64,000 nucleotides of DNA from Desulfovibrio cuneatus DSM 11391 (GTDB lineage: Bacteria > Desulfobacterota > Desulfovibrionia > Desulfovibrionales > Desulfovibrionaceae). The notes beneath the pieces are model-generated. The model saw nothing but the letters and a program-made list of their open reading frames with translations, did not search any database and was not told where the DNA came from. This document shows, piece by piece, positions 20,251 through 51,245 of this stretch (positions are counted from its first letter, which is position 1; each line of letters opens with the position of its first letter). The position numbers were made by a program, and so were the translations under genes. The stretch lies in NCBI RefSeq assembly GCF_000430005.1, contig NZ_AUCY01000011.1:62001-126000 (forward strand). Reading direction: 5' to 3'.

Positions 20251-20468
20251 GCAGGGTATGAATGAGGGGCTCTTATCTATTACGCATTATGATAAAAGTT
20301 GTACCACATAAGGTACGCGCTTTACTGACGGGAAGCGGTGTAAAAGTGTACTGAACTGCGCATGAGTGACGGGGCGCAACAAAGCGCGCTGAGGACGGGG
20401 GAGACTAAGAGAATTATCTGTAAGGTGCGGCGAAGCGCCGCGTCATTTTGTGATAGCAATGCCCCTTT

Positions 20469-20956
20469 GCGGCACAGCTCGTGCGTGTCTTTAGCTGCAT
20501 CAGACGAGTTTACCCATAGCACCACCAGCGTATGTGCGCTTTGCTGCGCCCACTTACCCATGCGAAGTACGGTAGATTTTATCAGCACTGTTTTGCAGAG
20601 GGGCGATTACCTTTTGCGGCACAGCTTGTGCGTGTCCTTAGCTGTATTAGACGAGTTTACCCATAGCACCACCAGCGTATGTGCGCTTTGCTGCGCCCAC
20701 TTACCCATGCGAAGTGCGGTATATTTTATCAGCACTGCTTTGCAGAGGGGCGATTACCTTTTGCGGCACAGCTTGTGCGTGTCCTTAGCTGCATCAGACG
20801 AGTTTACCCATAGCACCACCAGCGTATGTGCGCTTTGCTGCGCCCACTTACCCATGCGAAGTACGGTAGATTTTATCAGCACTGTTTTGCAGAGGGGCGA
20901 TTACCTTTTGCGGCACAGCTTGTGCGTGTCCTTAGCTGTATTAGACGCGCTTACCC
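20469..20956 (+). repeat. 147-bp tandem repeat, about 3.3 copies
   Basis: Copies start at 20469, 20616, 20763 and 20910 (partial) with the word GCGGCACAGCT, at exactly 147-base spacing. Identity between copies is very high and only scattered bases change. Because 147 is a multiple of three, one frame stays open across the array with a 49-residue period, but the predicted peptide is cysteine/histidine-rich and not protein-like. The array is flanked by family B repeats in opposite orientations. Confidence 0.9.
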
Positions 20957-20975
20957 ATAACTTGTACAGTGATAT

Positions 20976-22882: not shown

Positions 22883-23214
22883 GGAAACGCTGATTTATTC
22901 CGTTTGGCGACTTTCTTCCGCTTGGGCTTCGTTGAGATGAACAGCCAGCAAAGCTGTCTGTTCCCTCCGCCCTCGCTCCACGGCTCGCTATGCTCGCGAC
23001 TGCCGTCTTCCTTTCTCCACTCGGGCTTCGTTGAAATGAACAGCCAGCAAAGCTGTCTGTTCCCTCCGCCCTCGCTCCACGGCTCGCTATGCTCGCGACG
23101 GCCGTCGGCTTTAGGGAATCAACCCAAGACGGAATTGTCACTTTTGCTTCAAAAAAAGCTCGCGCACAGGGCCTGTGTCCCCGACCTTGCCAAACGAAAT
23201 AACTGCGCGTTTCC
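22883..23214. repeat. Terminal-inverted-repeat element, 332-bp copy
   Basis: Ends are GGAAACGCTGATTTATTCCG and the inverse form TTGCCAAACGAAATAACTGC then GCGTTTCC. Two family A modules (22926-23010, 23026-23118) are nested inside. It lies between the dehydrogenase and permease genes of one operon. Confidence 0.8.
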
Positions 23215-32629: not shown

Positions 32630-34711
32630 ATGACCATCCGCTTTAAAATGCTCATGGCCTTTATTCTGACAACCGTGCTTACGGTGGCGGTTATTGGTTC
32701 ACTCGTGTTTGTCAACTTCCGTACCTATGCCTTGGGGGCTTTTAGTGAAGAAGCCACCGGGCAGTTACGCCGTATTGATGACATTATCAAGGTGTATATG
32801 GATAGTGCCGCCAACACCGTGCGCCACATGGCTACTATGCCAGAACTGCGAGAAGGTTTGGGGCGCCTTACCCCTATAACTGGTGCGACAAAAGACACTT
32901 TGGTTGACAGGCCAACGTTGACCCCACAAGGCCAAAAAATATTTGATCTTTTTTCCATGTTAGCCAAGCCTAACCCCGCTTATGAACTTGTGTATGCCGG
33001 CTTTAAAGATGCAGGCCTTGTTATATTCCCAGGTGTGACGCTGCCAGCAGGCTATGACCCACGTACCCGCGAATGGTTTACCACAGGTATGCAAAGTTCC
33101 GCAGAGGTAAGCTTTACCCAGCCGTATGTTTCATCCACCAAAATGGTAGTGCTCAGCGTTATGCACCGGGTAAGGGACGCTGCGGGTGCGGCCATTGGCG
33201 TGGCTTCGGTTGATTTTAACCTGCAAACCCTTACCAAGGCCCTAAGTGATATGCGCTTTGGCAACACTGGGTACGTTATGGTGTTTGATGGAAAAGGAAC
33301 CCTGCTGGTGGACAAGAATAACCAGGGTAACATTGGGAAAACCATTGCAGAATTGAATAGCCCGTTGTTACACCGTATAGGCTCCATGCAGGAAGGTCGC
33401 TTTGAAGCAGAAATAAGCGGCACAACGCATGTTGTGCAGGTGTATGTTTCTTCCACAACCGGGTGGAAGCTTGTAGTGCTGCGTGAACAAGGCGAAGTGC
33501 TTGCCGGGGCCGTTCAGTCTAGCCTTAACGTTCTGTATGCCGGGCTTGGTATGCTGTTGCTGGTAAGCGGACTTGCCTTTTTTATTGCCCGTTCCATTGC
33601 CCGGCCCATTAGCGTGTTGGTTGAAGCTTCAAGCCAGGTAGCCGGGGGGAATTTAACAGCTCTCCCTGTTGAACGGTTCACGGGCGAAGTGGGGCAGTTG
33701 CAACATAGCCTTGAAAGTATGATAGGCAGCCTTGGCGAGCTTATTAGCACTTCACAAACCAAAACTGCGGAAGCAGAAGAACAAACGCAGAAAGCCGCAC
33801 AAGCCCTTGAACAGGCCCGTGAAGCAGGTGAAAAAGCCGAACATGCCCGGCGCGATGGGATGTTGCAGGCAGCAGGCCAGCTTGAGAATATTGTTCAAAA
33901 AATTGGTGAAGCCACTGTTAACCTTGAACAAAGCATAAATGTCACCAACAACGGCCTTGTGCGCCAGGTAAGCATTATTACCGAAACAGCCAGTTCCATG
34001 GATGAAATGAGCGCCTCTGTGACGGAAGTGGCAAAAAATGCTTCTGATGCTTCAGGAAATGCACAACAAGGCAGCAAAGAAGCCAGTTCCGGTAAGCAGA
34101 ACATGACAATGGTGGTTAAGGGCATTAACGATGTGCAAAACAAGGCTGGGCATGTGCAGCAAAGCCTGGATGCACTTGGCGAACAGGCAAACTCCATTGG
34201 CAGGGTTATGGGTATTATTCTGGACATTGCAGACCAGACCAACCTGCTGGCGCTGAACGCAGCCATTGAAGCGGCCCGCGCTGGGGAGGCCGGACGCGGT
34301 TTTGCCGTGGTAGCCGATGAAGTGCGCAAACTGGCTGAAAAAACAACACAGGCCACGCAGGAAGTGGGGCAAACCGTAAGTGGTATTCAAACTGGTACGC
34401 AAGACAGCAGGCACCACATGCAAGAAGCTGAAAGCGCCATTGTGCGTACCATTACCAACGTAACGGAAGCAGAAGAACGCCTGGACCATATTGCAGCGGC
34501 CATTGAAAGCACTGCCGGGCAACTGCACTTCATCGCATCTGCTGCGGAAGAGCAGGCAGCAACCAGCCATAGTGTGGCCAGAAACAGCGCCACCATTCAA
34601 ACCATGATTTATGAAGATACTGAGAATCTTGCCAATTGTATGAAGCTGATTGATACCATGAAGGGCAATGCCAAGGAACTTGCACAGCTCGTTGCTGATT
34701 TGAAAAAATAG
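32630..34711 (+). CDS. Methyl-accepting chemotaxis protein with Cache sensor
   Basis: A 693-residue transmembrane chemoreceptor. The first membrane helix is at about residues 7-29, a periplasmic dCache-type ligand domain spans about 35-285 ([44 protein letters not shown]), the second helix is at about 300-322, then HAMP and a long signalling coiled coil. The hairpin tip ([20 protein letters not shown], about residue 535) contacts CheA/CheW. Such Cache domains often bind amino acids or carboxylates; the ligand is unknown. It lacks a C-terminal CheR-docking pentapeptide. A terminator follows. Confidence 0.93.
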
Positions 34712-34823: not shown

Positions 34824-35543
34824 TTACAACCCCAGCACCTTCCGCCTGCTAACCCCTGCCACCAGTGGGCCATTGTGTTTGAACACTCTGCCGGAGTCTG
34901 CCACCATATACCCGTGGTAGTACTGCGGTGGCTGTTCACACAGGTACAGCACGCGCACGGCTTCGGAATCTGCCAGCAGGGCAGTGGGGGTGCGTTGCTG
35001 CACTTCTTGCAACCGTTGCAGGGCAAGGCGCATCATGGTATCGCGGTCGCCAAAGTGCATGGTGTCGGTAGGGCAAGTTTGCACACAGGCGGGCTGCATG
35101 CCTTGTTGCACCCTGTCTATGCACATGTTGCATTTATAGATGCGCCCTGTGGCAGCGTCCAGCCGGGGAATATCGTAAGGGCATGCCTCGCGCACCATGC
35201 GGTAATCCACCTTGGCGGTCTTTTCCGTATACAGCACGGCCCCGGTGGCTTCGTCCTGGAGTATTGCCCCTGGCAGTTGGGCGTCTGCCGCCATTTTGCA
35301 GGAAGGTACAAGGCAGTGCCTGCACTGTTCAGGAAAGAACAGCCATTTAAGCACGCCATCTACTTCCACTTCATTAAAGCGCACAAGCTTGAAGGTTTGG
35401 GCGTTAAGGTCCGGCGGGTTTTGGTAGGAACCCGTGTTGCTGGTTTCCGTGTAGCCGTTATTTTTCCACTGCTTGCAGGCTGCCTGGCAACCCCGGCAGG
35501 CTGTGCAGCGTGTTTGGTCTATGAAAAAGGTTTTTCCGTTCAT
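34824..35543 (-). CDS. fdhB: Formate dehydrogenase iron-sulfur (beta) subunit
   Basis: Carries electrons from FdhA through four 4Fe-4S clusters to a periplasmic or membrane acceptor. The 239-residue protein has CTACRGCQAACKQW (residues 12-25), CRHCLVPSCKM (about 75), CPYDIP, and CNMCIDRVQQGMQPACVQTC (about 137), the usual 16-cysteine layout of this family. No signal peptide is seen, so it would be exported with FdhA by the Tat system. The start is ATG 35543 (MNGKTFF), after AAGGATATACCC. It lies 54 bases downstream of fdhA. Confidence 0.93.
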   Translation of the reverse strand: MNGKTFFIDQTRCTACRGCQAACKQWKNNGYTETSNTGSYQNPPDLNAQTFKLVRFNEVEVDGVLKWLFFPEQCRHCLVPSCKMAADAQLPGAILQDEATGAVLYTEKTAKVDYRMVREACPYDIPRLDAATGRIYKCNMCIDRVQQGMQPACVQTCPTDTMHFGDRDTMMRLALQRLQEVQQRTPTALLADSEAVRVLYLCEQPPQYYHGYMVADSGRVFKHNGPLVAGVSRRKVLGL

Positions 35544-35597
35544 GGGTATATCCTTATTCGGTATGGCGTTGAACGCGCTTTTTTCGTGCAAATCACA

Positions 35598-38500
35598 CTA
35601 CAGCTTACGCACGTTCACCATAAACGCTTTGGTTTCCGGAATGCCGGTGTTGGGGTCGCCTACAGAAGGGGTGAGTACGTTGGCGGAATCGTTGCCGCTA
35701 CCGGGTTTTTGGCCCCAGGCAAACTGCCAGGGCAGGCCCACTTCATGCACTGTTTCCCCCATAATCTGCATGGGCTTTATGCGCGGGGTCACCAGGGCCA
35801 CCACCTGCACGTTGCCTCGAATGGATTCCATTGCCACCCGTTCTCCGTTTTCAATGCCCAGTTCTGCGGCCAGTTCACGGCTTATTTCGCAAAAACCTTC
35901 AGGCTGCATTTCCTTCAGCCACGGGGTGTTGCGGGTCATGGTGCCAGACTGCCACTGCTCCGTTACCCTGTATGTGGTGCACACGTAAGGGAAGCGCTTG
36001 TCGCGCACGGCCTTTTCTTCCCCCTTGAAGGTAACGGCCACGGGGTTCACCCGCTGGCCGGAAAGGGGGTTGTGGTCCAGGGGGCTTTCAAAGGGTTCAT
36101 AGTGCTCCGGCAGGGGGCCATCCACCCGGCCAGGGCCAAACAACTGCCCGCGGCCTTCACGCACCATAATAAAGGGCAGGCGCTCCCCTGGGGGCCATGC
36201 GCCATCGGGCACGTCGCCGCTCCATTTTTTGCCGTCCCAGGTAATAACGGGGCGGGTGGGGTCCAGGGGGTTGCCCTGGGCATCTACACTGGCGCGGTTG
36301 TAAAGAATACGGCGGTTGGCAGGCCAGGCAAACGTCCAGTTGGGATACAGGCCAATGCTTTTTTGCTGCTCTGTTTGGGTGGGGTTGCGCCGGGCCATAA
36401 GGTTGCCTGCTTCGGTAACGCTGCCGGAAAAAATCCAGCAGCCGCAGCTTGTGCTGCCGTCGTCTTTCAGGGCGGCAAAACCCGGCACTTGCTGCCCGGC
36501 CTTAAAGGTCACATCGCCTACGGTGGTGTCTTTTAAAAACTGCCCGTTAAGGCGTTTTGCCACTTTTTCGGCGCTGTAGGCCTTGTTTTCCCGGTAGTCG
36601 GTGTCCAGTTGCAAAATGGGTTCAGGGAAGGTTCCACCCTGTTCTTTATACAGGGCGCGTATGGCATCATACATGTCCAGCATAATGTCACCATCGCTGC
36701 GGGAGTCGCCCAGTGGGTCTGCCCCCTTGTGGCGCCACTGCATCCAGCGGCCGGAGTTGATGACAGAACCGTCTTTTTCCACACTCATGGCGGCAGGCAG
36801 GAAAAACACTTCGGTGTTAATGTCTGCCGGGTTCATGCCAGGGCCTTTCCAGAACTCTGTGCTTTCGTTGTGGAACAGGTTTACCGCCACCATCCAGTCC
36901 AGGGTAGCAAGGGCCTTGCGGTTTTTGTTGGCGTTGGCACCCCCGGCACAGGGGTTTTGCCCCCACACAAAAGCGCCGGTAAAACCGCCTTCCATCATGC
37001 GGTGAAACAGGTTCAGCCATTCGTAGTCGGTTATTTTGGTATCTTCCAGTTTGGGCAGGTAACTATAGGCTGTTTCTAGTTCTGCCTTGGGGTACAGCGA
37101 CTTTAAGTAGGAAGCGATGTATTTGGGGGTGTTGTTCCACCAGTTGGCGCTTTTGGGGTCTTTGGTAATGGGGGTGCCCAGTTTTATGTAGTCTGCCAGG
37201 GTGGGGGCAGAAACCTTGGGTATGGGCAGGTAGCCGGGCAGGTTGTCTGCCAGCAGGGCAATGTCGGTTGTGCCTTGCACGTTGGATTCACCGCGCAGCG
37301 CGTTTACCCCGCCCCCGGCAATGCCAATGTTGCCCAACAGCAACTGCACCATGGAAAGGGCGCGAATGTTCTGCACGCCCACGGTGTGCTGGCACTGGCC
37401 CATGGCGTACATTATGGTTCCAGCCTTGTCTGGCCTGCCCGTGGCCCCAAAGGTGTTCCACAGTTGCAGCAAGGTTTCCTGGGGAATGCCTGTTACGTTG
37501 GAAGCCATTTCCGGCGTGTAGCGGCTGTAGTGGCGCTTCATTACCTGGAACACGCACTGGGGGTCTTGCAGGGTGGGGTCTTTCTGGCTAACGCCTTCGC
37601 CTTCTGTGGCAAAGCCCCACTTGGCCCTGTCGTATTTATTGGTTGCCTCGTCAAAACCGCTGAACAAGCCGTCTTCAAACCCGTACCCCGGCCCCACAAT
37701 GTAGGAGGCGTTGGTGTTGGCCACCACATAGTCTTTGGAATACAGCTCGTTATCCAGAATGTGGAGAATCATGCCACCCCAGAAGGCAAGGTCGGAACCG
37801 GAGCGAATGTGGGCGTGCATGTCTGCCTTGGCAGATGTGCGGGTAAAACGTGGGTCCACGTGAATAAGCTTGGCCCCGCGTTGCATGGCCTTGGTTACCC
37901 AGCGGAAGGAAATGGGATGTGTTTCTGCGGCGTTGCTGCCCATAATAAGCACCACGTCGCTGTTTTTCAGGTCAATCCAGTGGTTCGTCATTGCACCGCG
38001 TCCGAAGGACTCTGCCAGAGCCCCTACAGTAGAACTGTGTCAGATGCGGGCATGGCTTTCAATATAGACCATGCCTAACGAGCGTAAAATTGCCTGGTAC
38101 AGCCAGCCTTCTTCCGTGTCTAGCGCAGCAGAACCTACAGAGGCAATGGCGGTGGTGCGGTTTACGGTTTGGCCCTTGGCGTTTTTGGTTTCAAAGCCTT
38201 TGTCGCGGGTGTCTTTAATTTTTTGGGCAATGCGCGGCAAGGCCCAGTCCCAGCTTTTTTCTTCCCACTGGCTGCTGCCGGGGGCACGGTACAGCACGGA
38301 AGTAACCCGGCGGGGGTTTTCCGTTGTTTGCCACATGCTGGCCCCTTTGGGGCACAGGGTGCCACCGTTGGTGGGGTGGTCCGGGTCGCCTTCAATGTTT
38401 ATGGCGCGTTTGGTTTGCGGGTTGGACCACACCAAAATGCCGCAGCCCACGGCACAGTAACAGCATATGGAAGTGGTAATGGTGGCTTTGTCCAGCTTGA

Positions 38501-38606
38501 AGGCTTCTGTCTGCTGGGCTGCCCGGGAAAGGTTTATGCCAAGGCCGCCAAAGGCGCTTACTGCCCCCCCGGCCACCATTGCTTGTATAAAGGTACGACG
38601 TTTCAT
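35598..38606 (-). CDS. fdhA: Formate dehydrogenase catalytic (alpha) subunit, selenocysteine-containing
   Basis: Oxidises formate to CO2 at a bis-MGD Mo/W centre in the periplasm. The frame begins at ATG 38606 after AAAGGAAGGC with a Tat signal (MKRRTFIQAMVAGGAVSAF). The 4Fe-4S motif CCYCAVGCGILV and the molybdopterin domain follow. An in-frame TGA at 38042-38040 (residue 189) occurs exactly in the family's ARI-U-HSSTVGALAESFG motif, so it is read as selenocysteine. The product continues through SNAAETHPISFRW, to 1002 residues. FdhB follows. Reading the TGA as a stop would wrongly split the gene at 38040 and 37991. Confidence 0.95.
38005..38042 (-). promoter_or_regulatory. UGA(Sec) codon and SECIS-like hairpin
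   Basis: UGA at 38042-38040 is followed 16 bases later by GGGCTCT-GGC-AGAGTCC (38023-38007), a 7-bp stem with a GG-containing apical loop, the form recognised by SelB in bacterial formate dehydrogenase mRNAs. Confidence 0.8.
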
Positions 38607-38632
38607 AATGCCTTCCTTTGTAATTATTCTAT

Positions 38633-38836
38633 GGAAACGCTGATTTATTCCGTTTTGCGGCGTTGCTTCACTTTTTTTGAAACAGTCGAGGACGGAAGAG
38701 TTGACTCGGCCCGTCCTGGGCCTCGGCCTTCGACTCCCGCCCTTCGGGCAGTTCCCAATTCCGCTTTCCTGAAGAATTGTCACTCCTGCTTCAAAAAAAG
38801 CTAGCGCCTTGCCAAACGAAATAACTGCGCGTTTCC
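38633..38836. repeat. Terminal-inverted-repeat element, 204-bp copy
   Basis: Ends GGAAACGCTGATTTATTCCG and AACGAAATAACTGCGCGTTTCC (inverse, 22 bases). Interior matches the 11687 copy in reverse (CAGTCGAGGACGGAAGAG) and the 22883 copy (AAGAATTGTCACT, TTCAAAAAAAGCT). It lies 26 bases upstream of the fdhA start codon, so it must be transcribed in the fdhA leader or contain its promoter. Confidence 0.8.
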
Positions 38837-38865
38837 ATAATGCCAGTTAATAAGTGTGTCTCTAT

Positions 38866-39030
38866 TACTTGGGGAGGCTCTGCCTCCCTAATACCCACCG
38901 CCAAGGGCATGATGCCCTTGGAACCCGCATCAACGTTTACGTTTTCGCACAGCGAAAACGCAAACGTAAATGGGGGTCAAGGGGAATCATTCCCCTTGCA
39001 GGGGGTATGGGGGACAGCGTCCCCCAACCA
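38866..39030. repeat. Array of five hairpins (family C)
   Basis: In order: TTGGGGAGGCTCTGCCTCCC, CCAAGGGCATGATGCCCTTGG, TTTACGTTTTCGC/GCGAAAACG-C-AAACG, CAAGGGGAATCATTCCCCTTG and GGGGGACAGCGTCCCCC. The first two reproduce 15741-15835 in inverse orientation. The array fills the space between the end of the cytochrome operon and the fdhA leader and probably ends or attenuates transcription. Confidence 0.75.
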
Positions 39031-39041
39031 AACGCAAAAAA

Positions 39042-40784
39042 TCAGTCGTTCCCTATGTGGCAGGCGCGGCACTGAATGGGGCCACTGGCTTTACCCTGGC
39101 TACGCATTTCCAGGTGGCAGGGCTGGCAGCCCCGCACGGCACCGTGGAAGGCATTGCGGAACAACAACGGGTCTTCCGGGCTTACGCCGGGGCCAGGCAG
39201 CTTGCTGTGGCATCCTTCCTGGGCACAGGCCAGGGGCTTGCCGTCTACAAAACCTGTGTGGTGGCAGCTTTTGCAATCCAGGCGGGCATGCCCGGCATGG
39301 GGGAACACGGCACGTGGCCGGGTGAACACAGCCCCCTGTGGTGCGGTAATGCTGCGGGTGGGCAGTTCCACAATGGGGTGGTGCATGGAAACGTCCATGG
39401 GGGTGTTGTGGCACACGGCACAGTTACCAAAGGCCCCAAAGGGAGCAGCCACCTGCTGGTGCTGCACGGGGGGAATGTTGCTGCGGTTGCGGCCAAAGGG
39501 ATTTTCCGCTGGGTACAGGGCGTGGGGGGCACCGTGGCAGGTGCTGCACCGCAGTTGCCCGGAGTCGTCCACAGAATTGGAGAACAGGGCCTTTTCATCT
39601 TTGGTCCACTTGTTGAAGGCCGAGGCCGTTTCAGTGGAAGGCTTGGTGGTAAAGTCGTGGCAGCTTGCGCATGAGGGCATGTTCACCCGGGGAATGCGCG
39701 GAGCTATTTTATCCTGCGTGCTGGCAAGGCGCGGGGCAATGGCCCCGGCAAGGCGCTGGGCAGCGGCTTTGCCCGCACTGCTTTCGTGGTTCAGCAGGGA
39801 AATGGCGTGGTCTTCCAGAAAGCCATGGCAGCGGGTACAGTCCAGCCCTTTGGCGGCGTGCAGGTCGTTGGCAAACCAGGTAACACTTTGCGGGCCGGAA
39901 GGGTGGCAGGAGGCGCAGGCCTCAGCCCCTTGTTTGCCCATGTAGGCGGCATGCCAGCCGTGAATGGCGGCGGAAAGGTTCAGCCCGGTGTTGTTTTCCA
40001 GGCTGTGGCAGCTTGTACAGTTAATGGGGTTGCCAGCAGCCGCTTGGGCCGCAAGCTGGGTATTGTTAATGCGGTCATGCACACGCAAAATGTCGCCTGC
40101 GGTGGCGGTGTCCATGCCAGCCCGGCCTTCAACCCGCCACTCGCCCGTATGGCAGTTTTTACAGCCCATTTCGGTGGACATGGGCAACACGGTGCGGGTG
40201 GTGGCCAGCACTGTGCCTGATTTATCCACGGCTTCCACCGTTACCAGGGGGTAGGGGGTGAAGCTGCCCTTGCCACTGTAGGGCATGGCGGGAATAACCG
40301 GAGTGGTGAACACGCTCACATCCCCTTCCTTCAGGGTAAAGGTGCCCGTGCGGGGCAAGGGGTTGCCGCTTGCGTCCTGCAAGGGGCCTTGCGGGGAAAT
40401 GTCCAGGCTGTAACGGAGGGTTATGTCCTTGTCCGCCACGGCAAGGTCTGGGCCACGGTGAATAAGCTGTGCTTCCAGCACGGTGCCGGGTGGCAGCAGG
40501 CTCCAGGCCGGAGTGGGGTCGATAATTTGGGTAAGGCCGTTTTTGCTCCACACCGAAAGCACATACTGGCTGCTGGCGGGGTCAAAGGGCGGAATGGTAA
40601 CTGCTTCAGCATCATAGTCTTTATTTTGGTCTTGCTTTGGGGGGGCAGTGGCCTTTTGTAAGGCATTTTCTGGTACCGGGGGCACGGAGGCAGGGCCAGA
40701 CCACAGCGAAGCCCCGAAAAAGACCAGGCTGAGGGTGACCCCGGCAATCCACAGGGGATAGAGATAAGAGGATTTTTTGCTCAT
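39042..40784 (-). CDS. Multiheme c-type cytochrome, about 11 hemes
   Basis: A 580-residue exported electron carrier. It starts at ATG 40784 with a signal/anchor (YPLWIAGVTLSLVFFGASLW). Residues 60-215 are heme-free and beta-rich. Then come ten CxxCH motifs (CKNCH, CTSCH, CASCH, CTRCH, CASCH, CSTCH, CAVCH, CKSCH, CQPCH, CRACH) and one CX4CH (CAQEGCH), the latter typical of cytochrome c3-like domains. The last four sites form a class III-like module. It is the final gene of an operon with two quinol-oxidase-like membrane proteins, so it probably receives quinol electrons. The terminal acceptor is unknown. Confidence 0.9.
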   Translation of the reverse strand: MSKKSSYLYPLWIAGVTLSLVFFGASLWSGPASVPPVPENALQKATAPPKQDQNKDYDAEAVTIPPFDPASSQYVLSVWSKNGLTQIIDPTPAWSLLPPGTVLEAQLIHRGPDLAVADKDITLRYSLDISPQGPLQDASGNPLPRTGTFTLKEGDVSVFTTPVIPAMPYSGKGSFTPYPLVTVEAVDKSGTVLATTRTVLPMSTEMGCKNCHTGEWRVEGRAGMDTATAGDILRVHDRINNTQLAAQAAAGNPINCTSCHSLENNTGLNLSAAIHGWHAAYMGKQGAEACASCHPSGPQSVTWFANDLHAAKGLDCTRCHGFLEDHAISLLNHESSAGKAAAQRLAGAIAPRLASTQDKIAPRIPRVNMPSCASCHDFTTKPSTETASAFNKWTKDEKALFSNSVDDSGQLRCSTCHGAPHALYPAENPFGRNRSNIPPVQHQQVAAPFGAFGNCAVCHNTPMDVSMHHPIVELPTRSITAPQGAVFTRPRAVFPHAGHARLDCKSCHHTGFVDGKPLACAQEGCHSKLPGPGVSPEDPLLFRNAFHGAVRGCQPCHLEMRSQGKASGPIQCRACHIGND

Positions 40785-40886
40785 GGCGTATCCTTGGCAG
40801 GTTATAGAAAACACTGGTTCTGTCACTATTGGAGCGCAGGGTGGGCTACCAGGGTAACCCACGTGCGATAACTCTCAGTATTGCTA

Positions 40887-42209
40887 TTAATGGGCTGGGA
40901 ACATCTGGCTTAAGTAAAAAGCCAGGGCCCTGCGTTCTTCCGGGGTGCCAAAAAAGGGAGGCATGTACAGGTTCAGCCTGCCTTGGCCAGCCAACAGGGC
41001 ATCAATGCCAGCCATGCCACGCCCGGCAACACGCGGGGCAATGTTCAGCATGGGGCCACCCAGCCCGTGGCAGGAACCACATTGCTGGGCAAACAGGAAA
41101 CGCCCGGCCTGCATGCTGCCTTCTGCTGTGGCAAGGTCGTGGTTGCCTGCCCAGGGTGAAAGCGCCCCTTGGCGGTTCATGCGTTCGCCTTCTTCCAGGG
41201 GAATGTCGTTGGAATAGATTTTTCCGTAAATAACATACGGCCTGCGCGCGGTTTCACGCACCCACTCAAAGGCCCCGAGCTGGGCAAGGGAAAGCCCCAA
41301 TACCACCAGCACCAGCGCCATGCGGGCGGGGGCTGGCAAGCGGTGTAGTACCAGCAGTAACACCACTGCTGCCAGCAGCAGCAAGGGCGTAACCACCATG
41401 AACAGTTCCACAAAGGGACGAATGTCTGCATTGCCGCGTTGCAGGGCAGGAGGCAGGGAAAAGCCAGGGCCAAAACCCGGCAGGGCTGCTGCATACCACA
41501 CAGCAGAAGCGGCCAGCACAAGGAAGGAACCCACCACCCACACTGCGCTCCAGCGCAGCATGCGTTCCCGCGTGGGGGCACCTTTAATGCCAAGTGCCGT
41601 AACCATGCCAAACAGCCCTGCAAGCATCAGGGAGTTGGCAAAGCGGTACACAAGGGCAGGCCAGAAGGTGGGGTTGAGTATGCCTGTCCAGAAATCTTCC
41701 GGCCCGGCCCATTCCCCCGGCGTAAGCATAAAGCTGACAACCCCGTTAATGGCCACCAAGGAAAGAAAGGCAAAGGCAGCATACATCCAGCCCAGGGTCA
41801 TGTGGTCTTTGGGGCGCATGCGGCCTTGCAGGCACAGGGAAAAGGTGGCGGCATACAGGAGCAGGGCTACAATTTCCCCAAGAAAAAAAGCCCATTCGCT
41901 GGCCCAGGCATACATGAAGTTGCTCACCAGAAAGGACACTGCCGTGGGGGAAACCAGGGCGGTAACCATCCATATGCCCACCCCGGAAAGGCCACCAAAC
42001 ACCATGGTGACCAGCAGGAAAAATTTGGTGTGCTTTTGCACCCACTGTAATATTTCCGGGTTATTTTCACGGTGGCCTTTTGCTTCAGCAAACGTCAGCA
42101 AAAAGCCGCCGCCCACAGCTATTTGCGCCACAAAAATGTGCAGCACGGCAATAATGGCAATGAGCAGGCCGCCGTTAATATACGGTATTTCAAGTGCAGG
42201 AAAGTTCAT
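40887..42209 (-). CDS. CydA-like membrane protein fused to cytochrome c
   Basis: A 440-residue membrane protein with about nine helices and a C-terminal mono-heme cytochrome c domain (CGSCHGLGG near residue 378, axial methionine probably in YMPPFFG). The N-terminal half resembles cytochrome bd subunit I: a histidine in the first helix (HIFVAQIAVGGG) and ASEWAFFLGEIVALLLYAAT. Known relatives pair quinol oxidation with periplasmic cytochromes rather than necessarily reducing oxygen. The start ATG 42209 lies 2 bases from the stop of the upstream gene, indicating tight coupling. Whether it has oxidase activity cannot be told. Confidence 0.8.
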   Translation of the reverse strand: MNFPALEIPYINGGLLIAIIAVLHIFVAQIAVGGGFLLTFAEAKGHRENNPEILQWVQKHTKFFLLVTMVFGGLSGVGIWMVTALVSPTAVSFLVSNFMYAWASEWAFFLGEIVALLLYAATFSLCLQGRMRPKDHMTLGWMYAAFAFLSLVAINGVVSFMLTPGEWAGPEDFWTGILNPTFWPALVYRFANSLMLAGLFGMVTALGIKGAPTRERMLRWSAVWVVGSFLVLAASAVWYAAALPGFGPGFSLPPALQRGNADIRPFVELFMVVTPLLLLAAVVLLLVLHRLPAPARMALVLVVLGLSLAQLGAFEWVRETARRPYVIYGKIYSNDIPLEEGERMNRQGALSPWAGNHDLATAEGSMQAGRFLFAQQCGSCHGLGGPMLNIAPRVAGRGMAGIDALLAGQGRLNLYMPPFFGTPEERRALAFYLSQMFPAH

Positions 42210-42211
42210 GT

Positions 42212-43306
42212 TTATGCCTCCTTGGTATGTTGCGGTTGCGCCGCAGAAGGCGTGCTATAGGCCCTGGCACAAAGACGTAAGGCCCAAAAGATACCCGCAA
42301 AAGTGCCCAGGACGCTGACAAGGAACAGCACAAGCACACTTGGTGGCACGGCATATTCCGGGGGCATGGAACCGGCCTGAACCCCCATAAGCACAAACTG
42401 GCGTAGCAGCGCGCGCACGGCCACCATGGTGGCCACCAAAAAAGCGGCCACGCCAACGGTTTGCCATACTTTGGCCCGCAGGCTTAACCACACCCCAAGG
42501 CCCATGCCAAGCCCAAGGAAAGTATACAAGGCATGAATGGCAGGAGTTGTGAGTAAAAAATGTTGTTGCTGCGGTGTAAGGGAGAAAAAGTACCAGGTGC
42601 CCACGGCAAGTTGCCCCAGGGTGGCATGGCGGAACCAGGCAAGCCCTTGGGTAATGGCAGGTTCTTGCCCGGCAATGCCTTTATTTTGGCGCAGGGTCGC
42701 AAGCCCGGCAAGGCACAAGCCACCCACAGCCATACAGGCAAGCAAGGAGTGCAGAAAGCGCGGTACCACAGTGCCTGCCCCGGCAAGCAGCAGGGCACTG
42801 GCCCGTTCCGGCAACCAATTTGGCCACACTTGCGGGTTAAGCACCAGGGCCGCGTTGGCGGTTAAAATAAATGCGGTAAGCAGCAACAGGCAGGTAGCAA
42901 TACCCAGCACAAACCTGCGGCCATTTTCCTTTGCTGCGGCAAGGTACAGGCCGTAATAGGCCATCATTACCAGCAGCATTATTCCAAGCCACCACACTGA
43001 CTGGATAATGGAACCGCTATAAAAAAAACGGCCATACAGAACCTGTAAAAACAGCAGGGGCGGTACAGCAAGGTTTACCGTAAGGGCCACGCCTTTTGGC
43101 AGCATGGGCAGGCTATCTTCCAGGTTTTGGCGCACCGCAGCATGGGGGCTGCGCCAGCGCAGCACTGCCAGCAGTAATGTACCCACAAGCGCATTCATAA
43201 GAAGAAGGTGGGCGGTAAAGGTAATAAAGCTTAATACCTCTATCCAGCCAGCAGGGCCGGGTATGGGGGCAGCATAGGGCAAAAATGCCTGTATACCTTG
43301 AGTCAT
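42212..43306 (-). CDS. Polytopic membrane subunit of the cytochrome complex
   Basis: A 364-residue integral membrane protein with about nine helices. The start is ATG 43306 (MTQGIQAFLPYAAP) after AAAGGAAACTACC. A histidine in the first helix (FITFTAHLLLMNALVGTLLL) and others in later helices (FLHSLLACMAVGG) could bind heme b. It resembles the N-terminal part of the downstream CydA-like protein in topology and probably forms a heterodimer with it. No soluble domain is present. First gene of the three-gene operon; promoter not identified. Confidence 0.75.
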   Translation of the reverse strand: MTQGIQAFLPYAAPIPGPAGWIEVLSFITFTAHLLLMNALVGTLLLAVLRWRSPHAAVRQNLEDSLPMLPKGVALTVNLAVPPLLFLQVLYGRFFYSGSIIQSVWWLGIMLLVMMAYYGLYLAAAKENGRRFVLGIATCLLLLTAFILTANAALVLNPQVWPNWLPERASALLLAGAGTVVPRFLHSLLACMAVGGLCLAGLATLRQNKGIAGQEPAITQGLAWFRHATLGQLAVGTWYFFSLTPQQQHFLLTTPAIHALYTFLGLGMGLGVWLSLRAKVWQTVGVAAFLVATMVAVRALLRQFVLMGVQAGSMPPEYAVPPSVLVLFLVSVLGTFAGIFWALRLCARAYSTPSAAQPQHTKEA

Positions 43307-44623: not shown

Positions 44624-45976
44624 TTAGAATGACCAGGCGATACCAACGGAAACAAGGTCCTGGTTGTACTTGTATATGTCACTGTTGGAATTGTTTTGTA
44701 TGCGCTGATAGCTTGTTTCAATTTTCCAGGCAGCCGTAATATTATAGTTCAGGCTAACTCCCATGCGCACGCGTTCTTCTTCACGTTTTTCAAGGTCCAG
44801 GATAGTTGCGGGGCCTTTGTAGTAGTCTTTGCCATAGGCAACAAAAGGGCCGAATTCAAACCCCTTGGGAAGGCGGAACATCAGGTTTGCCGAAGCTTCC
44901 CAGCCATGGGAGGAATAATCGTTAATTTTTGCCATGCCATTGGTGTATTTGCCGCCCAGCATAAATTCGTGTTGGCTGTTACTGCCAAAAAAAAAGCGGC
45001 CATACAAACCAGCGTTACTGTACAACCCGTTTTTTGTTCTGTCGCGTGCGTAGTCGCGCTTGTCTATTCCGCCGCGGGCAATAACTTGCACTTTGGGGCT
45101 AACAGCATAGGCATACATAAGTTCCGGGCCTGTGCTCCAAATATGGGAATACAGTTCATAATCAAACGCTTCTGCCTTAACACGTATGTCCCATAGGCTA
45201 CGCTGGCCAAGGCGGCGCAGCCCTGCCGCCCCCCGTGCCCAAAGGGAGCTTCTGGTGCTGCTGTGGCGCAGTTTGTTGCTTGTGTTTCCCCGTGAGAAAA
45301 TTTGTAAATCGCTTACAATGTACCATGGGCTGTTTTGCCCCATGCGCCAACTGTAATCCAGCATGGCTCCTGCGTAGCCCGCAAACGACTCTATATGCTT
45401 TGCATTGGGAAATTCGATGTTCCAGTTGCCAAGCATCATTTTGTTGGAAGCAGGGCCCTGGTTGGCGTTGGAGTCGTACATGGCCCCTAAACGCACGTTG
45501 CCGTGCAGTTGGTGGCGGCTTACCTGGTTTGACCAGGCCTTGATTTTGGCCGCATCTGCTGCCGGGTCTGTTCCGGCCCGGGCCTGTTTTTGTTCCATGG
45601 CCAACAGGGCATTTGTGGTGTCGCCAAGAACAACGTACACTTGGGCAAGCTCGTCATAAAGCGTAGCTTCAGCGGGGAACACTTCCAGCACCCGTTCATA
45701 GGCCATAATGGCCTGGTTCAACCGTTGTGAACCCACAGCAGAACGGGCCAGGCCCAGGTTTACTTCCGGGTCGGCAGGGTATTGGCGCAGAAGTTGGGTA
45801 TATTCTGCATACGCTTCCATAAACTTACCTTGCTGCAGCAAGCTGGCCGCTTCTGCCTTGGCTGCTTGCTCGCTAAGCCCTTGGAGGGAAGCCGCAGCAT
45901 GTGCTTCAGCCATAGAGCACAGCAAAGCCGTGCACAAAATGAGACTGAAGAAGTAAGAACGGAGTACCTGTACCAT
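44624..45976 (-). CDS. SlaM/DUF560-like outer-membrane protein with TPR domain
   Basis: Surface lipoprotein assembly modifiers move lipoproteins to the cell surface. The 450-residue precursor starts at ATG 45976 with a signal peptide (RSYFFSLILCTALLCSMAEA), has TPR-like helices (residues 30-140; AAKAEAASLLQQGKFMEAYA, NQAIMAYERVLEVFPAEATL), then a beta-barrel of about 290 residues ending in aromatic AWSF, typical for barrel insertion. It is downstream of a FecR-domain gene in the same direction. The client is not known; the neighbour is a candidate. Confidence 0.75.
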   Translation of the reverse strand: MVQVLRSYFFSLILCTALLCSMAEAHAAASLQGLSEQAAKAEAASLLQQGKFMEAYAEYTQLLRQYPADPEVNLGLARSAVGSQRLNQAIMAYERVLEVFPAEATLYDELAQVYVVLGDTTNALLAMEQKQARAGTDPAADAAKIKAWSNQVSRHQLHGNVRLGAMYDSNANQGPASNKMMLGNWNIEFPNAKHIESFAGYAGAMLDYSWRMGQNSPWYIVSDLQIFSRGNTSNKLRHSSTRSSLWARGAAGLRRLGQRSLWDIRVKAEAFDYELYSHIWSTGPELMYAYAVSPKVQVIARGGIDKRDYARDRTKNGLYSNAGLYGRFFFGSNSQHEFMLGGKYTNGMAKINDYSSHGWEASANLMFRLPKGFEFGPFVAYGKDYYKGPATILDLEKREEERVRMGVSLNYNITAAWKIETSYQRIQNNSNSDIYKYNQDLVSVGIAWSF

Positions 45977-46168
45977 GAAAACCTCTAAGCCCTTATGCAT
46001 CAATCGGAATTTATGTGTAGAGGATACCAGATTAATTTGGAAAAGCAAAGCAGTACGGGGGTACTCTAAAACAGCAAAAGGCAAAATACAGTAAGTATTT
46101 TGCCTTTTGGTATAACTTGTGTGTCGTTTTGAATTTTGGTCGGTGTTCAGCCCATGCCCTGAAAAAAC

Positions 46169-47557
46169 TTATGGGGTTATGTTTTGGGTAGATTCGAATG
46201 ATCCGGAAGAACGAGTATTTCCTGTAAATGTGGCATCGTAAATACCGGTTACGGAATTTCCGTTCACTAAATCTGTCCAGGAATTATTGTTTGCCTGGAG
46301 GCGTGCCGAGCCGGGGATTAACATTTTCGTAACCCCGTTCACCAAGGCAGAACCTGTGAAGCCAGTTAAGGCAACTGAATCAGTCGGAGTGAAGCGGCCA
46401 CCACTCCCCCCTGTAAGGGTCATGGACTTGCTTCCGTCATTCATGTGCATATTGCCGTTTGTCGCTGCACCCGTGCTCAAGTTGAAGTCAAAGGAGAATG
46501 TTCCCTGTGTCCCTGTGGCAAACAGGTTGCCACTTCCGGCAGTGAGTGAGCCTGATACTATGCCTTGCGTTGGCCGTGGCACCGGGATGGGTGTTGGGGG
46601 TGGTGTTGGGCCAGGGGGTGGTGTTGGGCCAGGGGGTGGTGTTGGGTCAGGGGGTGGTGTTGGGTCAGGGGTGGGTGTTGGGCCAGGGGTGGGTGTTGAA
46701 TTTTGGTTGTCGTTTTTGGGCTGCAACTTTTCACTGAGGGCAGCAAAAGTGGCTGCGCTGTTGTTTTGCGTTGCCGTGGTGCTGCTTGCCAATGCACTGT
46801 TTGGGCCAGCGCCGCCGCCTGTGCTGGCAGAAGTGGATGAGCTAAGGCCACCCCCGGTGGAGGAAGCCACAGCGCCAGCGCTGCCGCCGGAATCACCGCT
46901 GCCAGAAGAAGAGTCGCCGGAGCCAGAACCAGACTGGGAGGCAGAAGATGACTTGGTGGGGGTTGCCCCGCCCACTTCGGCTTCAATGGCTTTTAGGTCT
47001 GCCGGGGTAATGACCGAAGGGGTAAGGTTGGAACTGGCAGCTTTAAAGCCACGCGGCACAACCACATCGTTCAAATATACGGTTTTCAGGGTGCTTTCCA
47101 CAAAAACCGCTGTGTTGCCCTGGCGGCTGTTAATGGTAAGCACTGTGCCACGAATCCCCACGGTGGCTTCCGGCGTGGTTACCGTAAAGCCCAAGGGGTT
47201 TTGTTCCACTATTTTGCCAGTAATAACACGGGCCATGCCTTCCAGAATATGGGCCTTAAAAACTGGTTTTTTGCCGTCAGCGGCAAAGTCCTGCATTTGC
47301 AGGCGGGCATTTGGGCCAATGGTTACGGTTGTATCGTCTTCAAAAAAAATCTGCACTTTTCCGGTGGCGGCTGTTACAATGGTGTCACCACGCTCAACCC
47401 CTGCTTTCAAGGCTAACGGAACTTTACTTCCGCTACGTTCCGCAAAGGCTTCACCCTTCAAGGAAATTACTGTTCCCACGGGGCCTGCAAAGCAAGCACC
47501 CGCAGTAAACAGGAATAACGCAAGGCCCAAAATGCAGGAGTGTATGTTCTTGTACAT
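46169..47557 (-). CDS. Exported FecR-domain protein with proline-rich linker and beta-rich C-domain
   Basis: A 462-residue precursor with a signal peptide (ILGLALFLFTAGACFA). A FecR-like beta domain occupies about residues 27-170 (GDTIVTAATGKVQIFFEDDT, TPEATVGIRGTVLTINSRQG). A serine/glycine-rich spacer and a PTPPPG/PTPPPD hexapeptide linker (about residues 288-325) follow, then a 130-residue beta-rich domain (TFSFDFNLSTGAATNGNMHM) that might be a small barrel. FecR domains here are extracytoplasmic, not sigma regulators. Its position upstream of a SlaM-like gene suggests it is cargo or partner. Confidence 0.75.
   Translation of the reverse strand: MYKNIHSCILGLALFLFTAGACFAGPVGTVISLKGEAFAERSGSKVPLALKAGVERGDTIVTAATGKVQIFFEDDTTVTIGPNARLQMQDFAADGKKPVFKAHILEGMARVITGKIVEQNPLGFTVTTPEATVGIRGTVLTINSRQGNTAVFVESTLKTVYLNDVVVPRGFKAASSNLTPSVITPADLKAIEAEVGGATPTKSSSASQSGSGSGDSSSGSGDSGGSAGAVASSTGGGLSSSTSASTGGGAGPNSALASSTTATQNNSAATFAALSEKLQPKNDNQNSTPTPGPTPTPDPTPPPDPTPPPGPTPPPGPTPPPTPIPVPRPTQGIVSGSLTAGSGNLFATGTQGTFSFDFNLSTGAATNGNMHMNDGSKSMTLTGGSGGRFTPTDSVALTGFTGSALVNGVTKMLIPGSARLQANNNSWTDLVNGNSVTGIYDATFTGNTRSSGSFESTQNITP
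46590..46699. repeat. 18-bp tandem repeat encoding the proline-rich linker
   Basis: Units of GGTGGTGTTGGGCCAGGG and variants repeat about six times inside the FecR-domain gene. Each codes for a hexapeptide (PTPPPG or PTPPPD), and unit number may vary by slippage. Confidence 0.8.
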
Positions 47558-47800: not shown

Positions 47801-48892
47801 CTAGTTTACCTTGCTCTGTGTGGCAAGGGTTTGGCAGGCAAGTTGCTTCAGGGCAGTTCTGTCTATTTTTCCACTGGCCTGTGTGCGGGGCAAGGCAGGC
47901 ACCACCACGAAATGTTTTGGTCGCATGTGCGGGTGCAGGGGGGCGGCAACGGCCTGTTGGTTCACAGGTTGTTCACTTACCAGCACCAGCACTTCCCCCA
48001 GTTGGGCGTGGGGGCAGGCGGTAACGGCAAAGGATGTGCCCAGCACCGGGTGCAGCAGGGCTTCAACTTCTTCAAGTTGCACTTTAAGCCCGCCGCACAG
48101 GGCAATGTTGTCGCTTCGCCCATGAATGGTGAAGCTGCCGTCCTCATGCAGGGTGACAATGTCGTTGGTTTCCAGTTCCTGTGGGCACACTTGTGGGGCA
48201 TGCAGGGCCAGGGTGCCCCTGGCTGTTTGCCACACCCTTACCCCCGTGAGGGGGGTGTACCCTGTTTGCTGGCAAGGCCCATTGATGCGGCGCAGGGCAA
48301 TGTGCGAAAGGGTTTCTGTCATGCCGTAGGTGGCCCAGGCCTGCCCCGGAAAATGGGTAAGCGCAGTAACAAGCTCATGCGGCACAGGGCCGCCCCCCAC
48401 AAGTAAATGGCGCACAGCATACAGGTGTGTGCGCGCATGTGGGTTTTGCAGGCCGTTGTGTACTTGCAAGGGCACCATGGCGGCAAGGTCTATGGTGCCG
48501 TAATGTTCCAGCATGGGGGTGCCGGAAACCGGGGCAACATGCAGGTTCAGCCCGGCCTGAATGGCCCGTACAATCATCATTTTTCCGGCAATGTACTGGG
48601 GGGAAAGGCAAAGCAAGGCAGTGTGCCCTTTGTGCAGGCCAAGGTGCGCACAGGTTATGGCGGCGCTGTGCAGCATACGGCTTTTTTCTGCCACCAGCAG
48701 TTTTGGTGTACCTGTGGAACCGGAGGTGTGCAGGGTAAGGCTTGGAGCAGGGGCAAACCATTGCTGCAAGAACAGCGCAAGCTCTTTATGCTGGGCAGAG
48801 CGCCAGGCAATATCTGGCAGGGCTTTTGGGGAAAAGGCACTTGCCGGGTAGGTTGTGCCTTCAATGGTTATGCACGCGGGACTGTGGGCCAA
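47801..48892 (-). CDS. menE: O-succinylbenzoate-CoA ligase, short form
   Basis: Activates o-succinylbenzoate with CoA in menaquinone synthesis. The AMP-binding motif TSGSTGTPKLLVAEKSRM is near residue 50, LCLSPQYIAGKMMIVRAIQA near 94, YGMTETLSHIALR near 185 and the hinge/lysine region GRSDNIALCGGLKV near 260; ASGKIDR is at the end. I choose TTG 48892, nine bases after AAAGGAG; the frame continues to an ATG at 49042, but those codons lie in repeat DNA. At about 363 residues it is about 90 shorter than the E. coli type and resembles Bacteroidetes MenE. Last gene of the men operon. Confidence 0.88.
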   Translation of the reverse strand: MAHSPACITIEGTTYPASAFSPKALPDIAWRSAQHKELALFLQQWFAPAPSLTLHTSGSTGTPKLLVAEKSRMLHSAAITCAHLGLHKGHTALLCLSPQYIAGKMMIVRAIQAGLNLHVAPVSGTPMLEHYGTIDLAAMVPLQVHNGLQNPHARTHLYAVRHLLVGGGPVPHELVTALTHFPGQAWATYGMTETLSHIALRRINGPCQQTGYTPLTGVRVWQTARGTLALHAPQVCPQELETNDIVTLHEDGSFTIHGRSDNIALCGGLKVQLEEVEALLHPVLGTSFAVTACPHAQLGEVLVLVSEQPVNQQAVAAPLHPHMRPKHFVVVPALPRTQASGKIDRTALKQLACQTLATQSKVN

Positions 48893-48976
48893 GGGGGGGG
48901 ACTCCTTTTCTTCCGCTCGAAAGTATTGCACATGAATGTATTGGTTGTAATTGGGGGACTCTGTTCCCCTGCCGAC

Positions 48977-49180
48977 CTTCTTCCGTTCCAGCGGCGGGGT
49001 ACATGCTTTGGCGGCGTAGCCGCCTGCGCCCCGCCTTGTCACTCCACGGCTCGCTACGCTCGCGACTACCGTCTACCTTTTTCCGTTCCAGCGGCGGGGT
49101 ACATGCTTTGGCGGCGTAGCCGCCTGCGCCCCGCCTTGTCACTCCATGGCTCGCTACGCTCGCGACTACCGTCAGTTTTA
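48977..49180 (+). repeat. Two tandem 103-bp repeats (family A relatives) inside the men operon
   Basis: TTCCGTTCCAGCGGCGGGGT begins copies at 48982 and 49081. Each contains GGCGGCGTAGCCGCC and CTCGCTACGCTCGCGACTAC, followed after the second copy by TTTTAGGGAAGG. They separate menC from menE and supply the spurious upstream codons of menE. Confidence 0.85.
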
Positions 49181-49229
49181 GGGAAGGCGTATGCGTAAGA
49201 TGTGAATAAAATATCTGATGCGCAGATAT

Positions 49230-50330
49230 TTACATACTGCTGCAATAACTTTTCAAAGTTGTTGGGCAGGTGCTGTACGGGCAAAGCTGTTGCATGTGCG
49301 TAGGGGAGAACCAGAGTGTATCCTGCTGCACCGCAAGGCCAAAGGGCAGGTTGTTGGTATACAGCAAGCCAGTGCCAAGGCCCTGGGGCAGGGTGGGGGC
49401 AAGGGTTGCGCACCATTGGGCAATGGCGTTTAGGCCGATGTTGGATTCCAGGGCCGAAGTGAGCCACCAGCCCACGCCATGTTTTGCGGCAAGGTCAAGC
49501 CACTGGCGGGTGCCGTGCAGGCCGCCGTGCAAGCTGGGTTTAAGCACAAGGTATTGCGGCGCAACCGTGCGTAAAAGTTCTTCCTTTTCCGCCAGGGTTG
49601 TCAGGCCAATAAGCTCTTCATCCAGGGCAATGGGCAGGGGTGTGTTGGCGGTAAGGGCCGCAAGGGCCTCCCACTGGCCTTTGGCAATGGGCTGTTCAAT
49701 GGAATGGAGGTGAAATTCAGCAAGGCGGCTGAGCTTTTCCGGCGCTTCTGCCGGGCTGAAGGCCCCGTTGGCGTCCACCCGAATGGTAATATCGCTGGGG
49801 CTGAAGGCTGCACGAATATGGCGCAACAGGGCCAGCTCGCGTGAAAAGTCAAGGGCCCCGATTTTCAGCTTGATGCACCGAAAGCCCTGGGCCAGTTTGG
49901 CTTCAATTTGTTGCAGCATGTAGGGGTAGTCGCCCATCCATACCAGCCCGTTTATGGGTATGCCTGCCTCGCTCCTGGCAAAAGCCGTGGGCCACAGGGC
50001 AAAACTGCTTGCCTGTAAATGCTGCAAGGCGGTTTCCAGCCCAAACAGGATGGAAGGTGTTTTTTCCAGGGTCGTATGGGTGAGCTGCCCTGTGCGGGCA
50101 AGGGTGGTGCAGGCCTGGTGCAGGGCTGTTTCATAATCTTTGGGGGGCAGGGCGTCGCAACTCAGGCCGGGCAGGGGGGCGCACTCCCCAATGCCGCTTT
50201 GTCCGGCAGCGTTGGTGAGTACAACATACCACACCGTGTGGGTGTGCATAACCCCGCGTGAAGTGCCCGCTGGCCTGTGAAACACCAGGGTGCGGGGAAT
50301 AATGGAAAATGTGTAGTGGGAATTTTGCAT
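49230..50330 (-). CDS. menC: o-Succinylbenzoate synthase
   Basis: Dehydrates SHCHC to o-succinylbenzoate. This 366-residue enolase-superfamily enzyme shows the N-terminal capping domain (HRPAGTSRGVMHTHTVWYVV, GIGECAPLPGLSCD), then KLKIGALDF with the catalytic KxK lysine near residue 172, metal ligands in RVDANGAF, HSIEQPI and LPIALDEELIG, and the second lysine in LVLKPSLHGG. The PAGTSRG and GIGECAPLPGLS wording is typical of Bacteroidetes-type MenC (my recollection of the family). Upstream is menB. Confidence 0.93.
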   Translation of the reverse strand: MQNSHYTFSIIPRTLVFHRPAGTSRGVMHTHTVWYVVLTNAAGQSGIGECAPLPGLSCDALPPKDYETALHQACTTLARTGQLTHTTLEKTPSILFGLETALQHLQASSFALWPTAFARSEAGIPINGLVWMGDYPYMLQQIEAKLAQGFRCIKLKIGALDFSRELALLRHIRAAFSPSDITIRVDANGAFSPAEAPEKLSRLAEFHLHSIEQPIAKGQWEALAALTANTPLPIALDEELIGLTTLAEKEELLRTVAPQYLVLKPSLHGGLHGTRQWLDLAAKHGVGWWLTSALESNIGLNAIAQWCATLAPTLPQGLGTGLLYTNNLPFGLAVQQDTLWFSPTHMQQLCPYSTCPTTLKSYCSSM

Positions 50331-50352
50331 AATGAATGTGATTGGTTATTAT

Positions 50353-50376
50353 TGGGGAGGCAGAGCCTCCCCAAGT
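50353..50376. repeat. Hairpin repeat of family C between menC and menB
   Basis: TTGGGGAGGCAGAGCCTCC then CCAA, a 10-bp perfect stem, recurs at 15790-15812 and 38872-38891. In this position it lies in an operon and could cause partial termination or protect mRNA ends. Confidence 0.65.
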
Positions 50377-50411
50377 AAGTGCAACAATTTCGACTTTTGC
50401 ACTTCTCTCTC

Positions 50412-51233
50412 TTAAGGAAACTTGGGGAAGCGGGAAAAGTCGGGCTTGCGTTTTTCCAGAAAGGCTTTTTTGCCTTCTTGTGCTTCTTCTGTGAGGTAAT
50501 AGAGCAGGGTGGCATTGCCTGCCAGTTCTTGCAGGCCTGCTTGGCCATCCAGTTCCGCGTTCAGGCCAAGTTTAAGCATGCGCAGGGCCATGGGGCTGTG
50601 GCACAGCATTTCTTTGGCCCACTGCACCACTTCATCTTCAAGGCGTTCAAAGGGTACCACGGCGTTCACAAGGCCCATTTCCAGGGCTTGCTGCGCAGAA
50701 TATTGGCGGCATAAAAACCATATTTCCCGTGCTTTTTTCTGGCCCACCACCCGGGCAAGGTAGGAAGAACCGAACCCGGCATCAAAGCTGCCCACTTTGG
50801 GGCCGGTTTGTCCGAAAATGGCGTTTTCAGAAGCAATGGAAAGGTCACACAAAACGTGCAGCACGTGCCCCCCGCCAATGGCAAAGCCGTTAACCATGGC
50901 AATAACAGGCTTTGGCAGTGAGCGAATTTGCTTTTGCACATCAAGAATATTCAGGCGCGGTATGCCATTGGCGTCTATATAGCCCCCGTGCCCCTTCACA
51001 TTCTGGTCGCCCCCGGCGCAAAAGGCTTTGTCGCCAGCGCCAGTAAGCACCACCACTCCAATTTCCGGTGTTTCCCGGCAAATGTGCAAGGCTTCACTTA
51101 TTTCACGGGAGGTGAGGGGGGTAAAGGCGTTGCGGTAGCGTGGACGGTTGATAGTTATTTTGGCAATACCTTCATAAAAGTCGAAAAAGATTTCTTCAAA
51201 CGTTTTGATTTGTTTCCATTCTCGTGTGCTCAT
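50412..51233 (-). CDS. menB: 1,4-Dihydroxy-2-naphthoyl-CoA synthase
   Basis: Cyclises o-succinylbenzoyl-CoA in menaquinone synthesis. The 273-residue crotonase-family enzyme has [17 protein letters not shown], the oxyanion-hole segments [20 protein letters not shown] (residues 65-84) and [20 protein letters not shown], and the MenB-specific [18 protein letters not shown]. The C-terminus has the [13 protein letters not shown] tail seen in MenB. It sits 12 bases after the menD stop, which argues for co-transcription. Confidence 0.95.
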
Positions 51234-51245
51234 AGGGTAGTCCTT

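Follow-up and report, generated by a model that had tools for sequence, protein, structure and literature searches.

A putative quinol-independent cytochrome bd-type oxygen reductase with an 11-heme cytochrome, encoded beside a formate dehydrogenase in Desulfovibrio cuneatus

According to a 2021 review, all characterised cytochrome bd enzymes are quinol oxidases, and an enzyme with another donor was still to be found (PMC8509429). In two of the three bd families the quinol site is missing, and the donor is probably cytochrome c or another molecule (PMC8509429, PMC10839748). A stretch of 64,000 nucleotides from Desulfovibrio cuneatus DSM 11391, hereafter called the window, encodes a CydA-like protein next to a multiheme cytochrome and a formate dehydrogenase. 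This locus raises the question of which way electrons run through such a module: from quinol to cytochromes, as a first-pass annotation had proposed, or from cytochromes to O2. Here, we will describe the parts of the locus, their distribution among relatives, and the readings that they allow.

The locus and its surroundings

The module consists of three genes, B, A and C, followed on the same strand by FdhA and FdhB (Table 1). The first-pass annotation had described three proteins at 39042–43306, and all were recovered exactly there, as were a CGSCH motif near the C-terminus of one CydA-like protein (A residues 377–381) and ten CxxCH sites plus one CX4CH in C. The fdhAB genes that it had seen downstream of C are likewise real, and the reading frame of FdhA continues across an internal TGA (38040–38042) that encodes its selenocysteine. 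The view that the module goes beyond a simple bd oxidase also stands, and so does that of one multi-subunit electron-transfer module.

Table 1. Features of the locus, with positions in the window
Feature	Position	Strand	Description
B	42212..43306	minus	364 aa membrane subunit, bd-subunit-like
A	40887..42209	minus	440 aa CydA-like subunit, C-terminal cytochrome c
Class I-type cytochrome c domain of A	40899..41126	minus	residues 362–437, PF13442 E 5.6e-7
C	39042..40784	minus	580 aa 11-heme periplasmic cytochrome, N-terminal signal/anchor
Heptaheme core of C	39351..40637	minus	about residues 50–478
Tetraheme cytochrome c3 domain of C	39045..39338	minus	residues 483–580, PF02085 E 8.7e-17
C–fdhA intergenic region	38607..39041	minus	26-nt inverted repeat at 38923–38977
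FdhA	35598..38606	minus	Tat-exported (MKRRTFIQ) formate dehydrogenase catalytic subunit, selenocysteine residue 189
FdhB	34824..35591	minus	iron-sulfur subunit

Co-transcription of C and fdhA is unproven, because a 435-bp gap containing the inverted repeat lies between them; this spacing is about 1.3 kb in one related locus (L034) and about 350 bp in the other loci of the same type. Promoter and terminator scans of the gap stayed at chance level and gave no confident hit, and no RNA families were found in the region.

Several other features of the window were recorded. Menaquinone genes (MenE/MenC/MenB/MenD-like; 47801–52886, minus) lie upstream of the module on the same strand, with a 100-bp unit present twice (97%; 48975–49173) overlapping the start of the MenE-like reading frame. 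A repeated 99-bp unit at 22911–23106 looks similar to it, and a 147-bp tandem repeat (3.4 copies, 95% matches) occupies 20466–20959. At 44624–47557 (minus), a SlipAM/TPR outer-membrane protein is encoded beside a protein that has a FecR domain and a proline repeat of low complexity, and the two may form a surface-export pair. Just past fdhB, on the opposite strand, is a chemotaxis receptor with a dCache sensor (32630–34711, plus).

Subunits A and B

Subunit A has the CydA fold that forms the core of the cytochrome bd superfamily. It matches PF01654 (E 3e-7), a profile built from 14 homologues matches the solved Geobacillus CydA (5doq_A), and bd-oxidase chains take the top 20 places in a fold search with its structural model (mean pLDDT 79). 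Eight transmembrane (TM) helices are predicted with the positive loops inside, which would place both ends of the protein, and hence the cytochrome c domain, in the periplasm. Within this domain, M416 is invariant and likely serves as the distal heme ligand.

In a profile alignment to canonical CydAs, H19, E99 and E107 correspond to H24, E105 and E112 of A, while the alignment to 5doq_A pairs H21 with H24 and the EVGRQPW motif (containing E445, E. coli numbering) with E319..R322. H24, E105, E112 and E319 are invariant in 14 proteins of the A family, and R322 is invariant in the family as well. By these alignments, A holds counterparts of the residues for the two-heme active site and the proton path (H19, E99, E107 and E445). 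Whether H19 or E99 ligates heme d is disputed (PMC8509429); counterparts of both candidates are kept in A.

The features of quinol oxidation are missing. There is no room for a Q-loop in A, as only about 20 residues separate TM6 and TM7 in the model, and alignment to canonical CydAs reveals no counterpart of the quinol Lys/Glu pair, which is invariant (K250 and E255) in canonical CydAs, both that of this genome and those of relatives. In E. coli CydA, E445, H186 and M393 are heme ligands. The b558 histidine (H184; the H186 position) aligns with an invariant arginine in A, R189, and no invariant His or Met that could stand for the second b558 ligand (M393) occurs between residues 190 and 330. 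A canonical CydAB quinol oxidase was therefore rejected, since A has neither the Q-loop residues nor the b558 ligands: it shares the fold and the high-spin heme ligands with CydA, but carries an added cytochrome c domain, and the sequence of its partner B does not identify it as CydB. The quinol-to-cytochrome direction put forward by the first-pass annotation is not supported by this pattern. With the quinol features lost and the residues of the O2-reducing heme pair kept, electrons would instead run from cytochromes to O2.

Both membrane proteins had been called CydA-like at first. This holds for A by Pfam, profile and fold, whereas B, which has no Pfam or NCBIfam match, is better termed bd-subunit-like. 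A profile of B matches A with 95.7% probability and, across four genomes, also finds A (E 1e-8 to 9e-5), and in a fold search bd chains, from CydA as well as CydB, account for the 17 best matches of B (best E 1.5e-3); a search of solved structures with the B profile found nothing. B is thus distantly homologous to A and folds like a bd subunit. Its invariant residues include H33 and H186, together with W and R residues, and the two histidines could bind a heme.

When the lists were compared one by one, the 28 genomes with A, out of 59 related ones, proved to be exactly those with B. The two genes are unlinked in Desulfonema magnum and in two relatives, with one copy of each present, and one Desulfobacterales clade (L060, L061, L066, L080, L081, L091, L104 and L105) has a fused form of A without adjacent B; B was located elsewhere in all three genomes of this clade that were checked (L060, L066 and L091). 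Because they occur in the same genomes, even where unlinked, B looks like an obligate partner of A. Neither A nor B occurs in any of the 14 other genomes of the source genus (several of them incomplete), yet they are present in many other genera of the order, a patchy distribution that suggests loss or transfer.

The 11-heme cytochrome and the formate dehydrogenase

The CxxCH motifs of C start at residues 208, 256, 290, 316, 372, 413, 455, 504, 553 and 572, with the CX4CH at 520. In the heptaheme core, all seven CxxCH motifs and eight further histidines are invariant in 13 homologues, so these motifs are not a matter of chance. The core is homologous to the C-terminal half of a fused protein found in relatives, where the common form consists of B and one protein of ~880 aa that joins A to the heptaheme (eight CxxCH in total). 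This fused form occurs in Desulfobacterota and a few other phyla, and separate genes for A and the heptaheme are seen in one Desulfovibrionaceae clade (by a quick tree of A, in which L035 is labelled 'fused' solely owing to an early contig end). Since the two are fused into one protein in most relatives examined, the heptaheme is tied to A. For the named genomes, a scan with a single protein gave no confirmed match, while a query with an alignment did find homologues.

The remaining four hemes of C belong to a class III cytochrome c (c3) domain, as its motifs (CKSCHH, CAQEGCH, CQPCH and CRACH) show the CxxCHH and CX4CH spacing of that class along with the PF02085 match. Descent of this domain from a formate dehydrogenase c3 subunit was considered and set aside, because the one c3 found near an fdh locus (L183/L223) is not its nearest relative in a weakly supported c3 tree. 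The C-terminal c3 extension is found in the window, in Desulfovibrio sp. A2, in Nitratidesulfovibrio oxamicus and in two Desulfovibrio metagenome-assembled genomes (L034 and L038), and one further Nitratidesulfovibrio contig ends ahead of the c3 region. The split, c3-extended form of the window is rarer than the fused form.

Downstream of C, fdhAB follows on the same strand in each of the five full-length c3-extended loci, and in no other of the 98 loci examined. These fdhAB genes share about 70% identity (fdhA about 72% to that of the window), and other FdhAs in ten genomes reach at most 62% identity to the FdhA of the window, which matches formate dehydrogenase-N alpha. No membrane or cytochrome subunit gene follows fdhB, nor does the window hold a separate c3 subunit gene beside fdhAB; the c3 is a domain of C. 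With an FdhAB that lacks its own cytochrome subunit and a c3 domain on C, we propose a path from formate via FdhAB to the c3 domain. Electron sharing between fdhAB and the module, suspected from the start, is plausible. In Desulfovibrio, FdhABC3 combines a selenocysteine FdhA, an FdhB and a tetraheme c3-type acceptor in one cluster, with the c3 as a separate small subunit. The window has the same set, but its c3 forms part of an 11-heme protein linked to a bd-like reductase.

The association of the c3 extension with fdhAB is suggestive and not statistically strong, as it may represent only one or two independent events by ancestry. This also feeds a competing explanation, in which the reductase draws on a general periplasmic c3/hydrogenase pool, while fdhAB is a neighbour by inheritance with no specific link. 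Most relatives have the enzyme without fdhAB, among them the closest by A (G031, 65% identity), which has neither the c3 domain nor a nearby fdhAB, so the enzyme can do without the formate link; that the c3 domain is not closest in the tree to the c3 found near an fdh locus fits this explanation as well. Against it, wherever a locus allowed a judgement, the c3 domain and fdhAB were either both present or both absent, and the FdhAB of the window has no cytochrome subunit of its own. We consider a pool-fed reductase possible though doubtful, an estimate that overlaps with our preferred explanation because the O2-reductase part is common to both.

Oxygen, donors and electron flow

In Desulfobacterota, the neighbours of the enzyme include a Roo-type flavodiiron protein (nine loci), rubrerythrin, desulfoferrodoxin and canonical cydAB. 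Five desulfoferrodoxin genes were seen, compared with about 0.4 expected in 1.3 Mb of flank (an expectation derived from 56 matches in 59 genomes, mostly of 2–4 Mb, with the density measured in a different order), and most of these loci share one arrangement. One island, in L041, L044 and L054, runs from desulfoferrodoxin, cydA, cydB and a Roo-like flavodiiron protein to B and the fused A, and rubrerythrin also occurs in the islands of L041 and L054. No O2-defence genes lie beside the copy in the window, and elsewhere they belong mostly to one repeated Desulfobacterales arrangement. In Desulfovibrionales, no desulfoferrodoxin adjoins the enzyme, the genes being on other contigs or far away, so the argument draws on Desulfobacterales and two Roo-bearing Desulfovibrionaceae loci. 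The excess of such neighbours supports an O2 role without proving it. A canonical CydAB is also encoded in the source genome (G000:C59); B-A-C is thus not its sole O2 sink, and a quinol-based O2 route exists alongside.

The quinol direction could be rescued if B, or the A–B interface, oxidised menaquinol and passed electrons to the c hemes, with acceptors in the periplasm or outside the cell. A quinone-binding subunit of the NrfD/PsrC type (2vpw_C, probability 1.00, E 0.08) is among the fold matches of B, which keeps invariant H33, H186, W and R residues and may have a quinone site. However, bd chains rank above NrfD-like chains for B, while A is missing the known quinol site and b558 and has invariant O2-site residues, making a quinol:cytochrome oxidoreductase of this kind rather unlikely. 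The heme-pair logic would serve equally well for another small molecule, such as nitric oxide, nitrite or peroxide, and the hosts are anaerobes. The O2-defence genes near relatives speak against this, and the clusters recurring in at least four loci, part of which were identified, included no recognisable gene for NO or nitrite, so we regard a substrate other than O2 as quite improbable. A bc-type quinol:cytochrome c oxidoreductase was rejected, as A, B and C have no cytochrome b or Rieske Pfam match.

Taken together, A, B and C are probably subunits of a bd-superfamily oxygen reductase that works independently of quinol, resembles OR-C most and is fed by FdhAB. Secondary sources and residues were the basis for the likeness to OR-C, and the fused cytochrome c domain, a mark of OR-C, points there. 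The OR-C and OR-N families (Murali, Gennis and Hemp 2021), as described in PMC10839748, PMC8509429 and PMC12342949, share with the module the core helices with a two-heme active site, the missing quinol site and a likely cytochrome c donor. The module differs from them by its split heptaheme-plus-c3 cytochrome, a B without a Pfam model and the adjacent fdhAB. We would thus see it as a variant of the predicted, biochemically unproven non-quinol kind of bd enzyme, with an apparently new split heptaheme-plus-c3 arrangement.

In the proposed mechanism, the soluble, periplasmic FdhAB would oxidise formate, and the c3 domain of C, replacing a separate cytochrome subunit, would take its electrons. 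If C carries its full set of hemes and forms a complex with A and B, its heptaheme core could hand electrons to the cytochrome c domain of A, which would feed the heme b/d pair from the periplasm. The two high-spin hemes of A would then reduce O2, with no quinone involved and with protons drawn from the cytoplasm via E112 (the E107 counterpart). Since electrons would enter from the periplasmic side and protons from the cytoplasmic side, removal of O2 would also be energy-conserving. As a whole, this amounts to a self-contained, quinone-free formate:O2 oxidoreductase, in which FdhAB, a c3-heptaheme wire and a cytochrome c-fed bd-type site conserve energy; we offer it tentatively, at somewhat less than even confidence.

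Cytochrome c-fed oxygen reduction has a precedent in a sulfate reducer: the cc(b/o)o3 oxidase of Desulfovibrio vulgaris receives its electrons from cytochrome c553 (PMC4383621), but that oxidase is of the heme-copper type, with a fold unrelated to the bd-like A. Desulfovibrio oxidises formate and H2 with O2 and conserves energy from O2 reduction (PMC4383621). Passages found in open papers on D. alaskensis genetics and extracellular electron transfer do not describe the complex. Desulfovibrio has long been reported to take up O2 in the periplasm with formate or H2, and the module is a candidate enzyme for this activity. If the proposal is true, this bd-type enzyme would be the first with a demonstrated donor other than quinol, and because a single cluster encodes the donor enzyme, the wire, the cytochrome c and the active site, the question of a non-quinol bd enzyme becomes testable.
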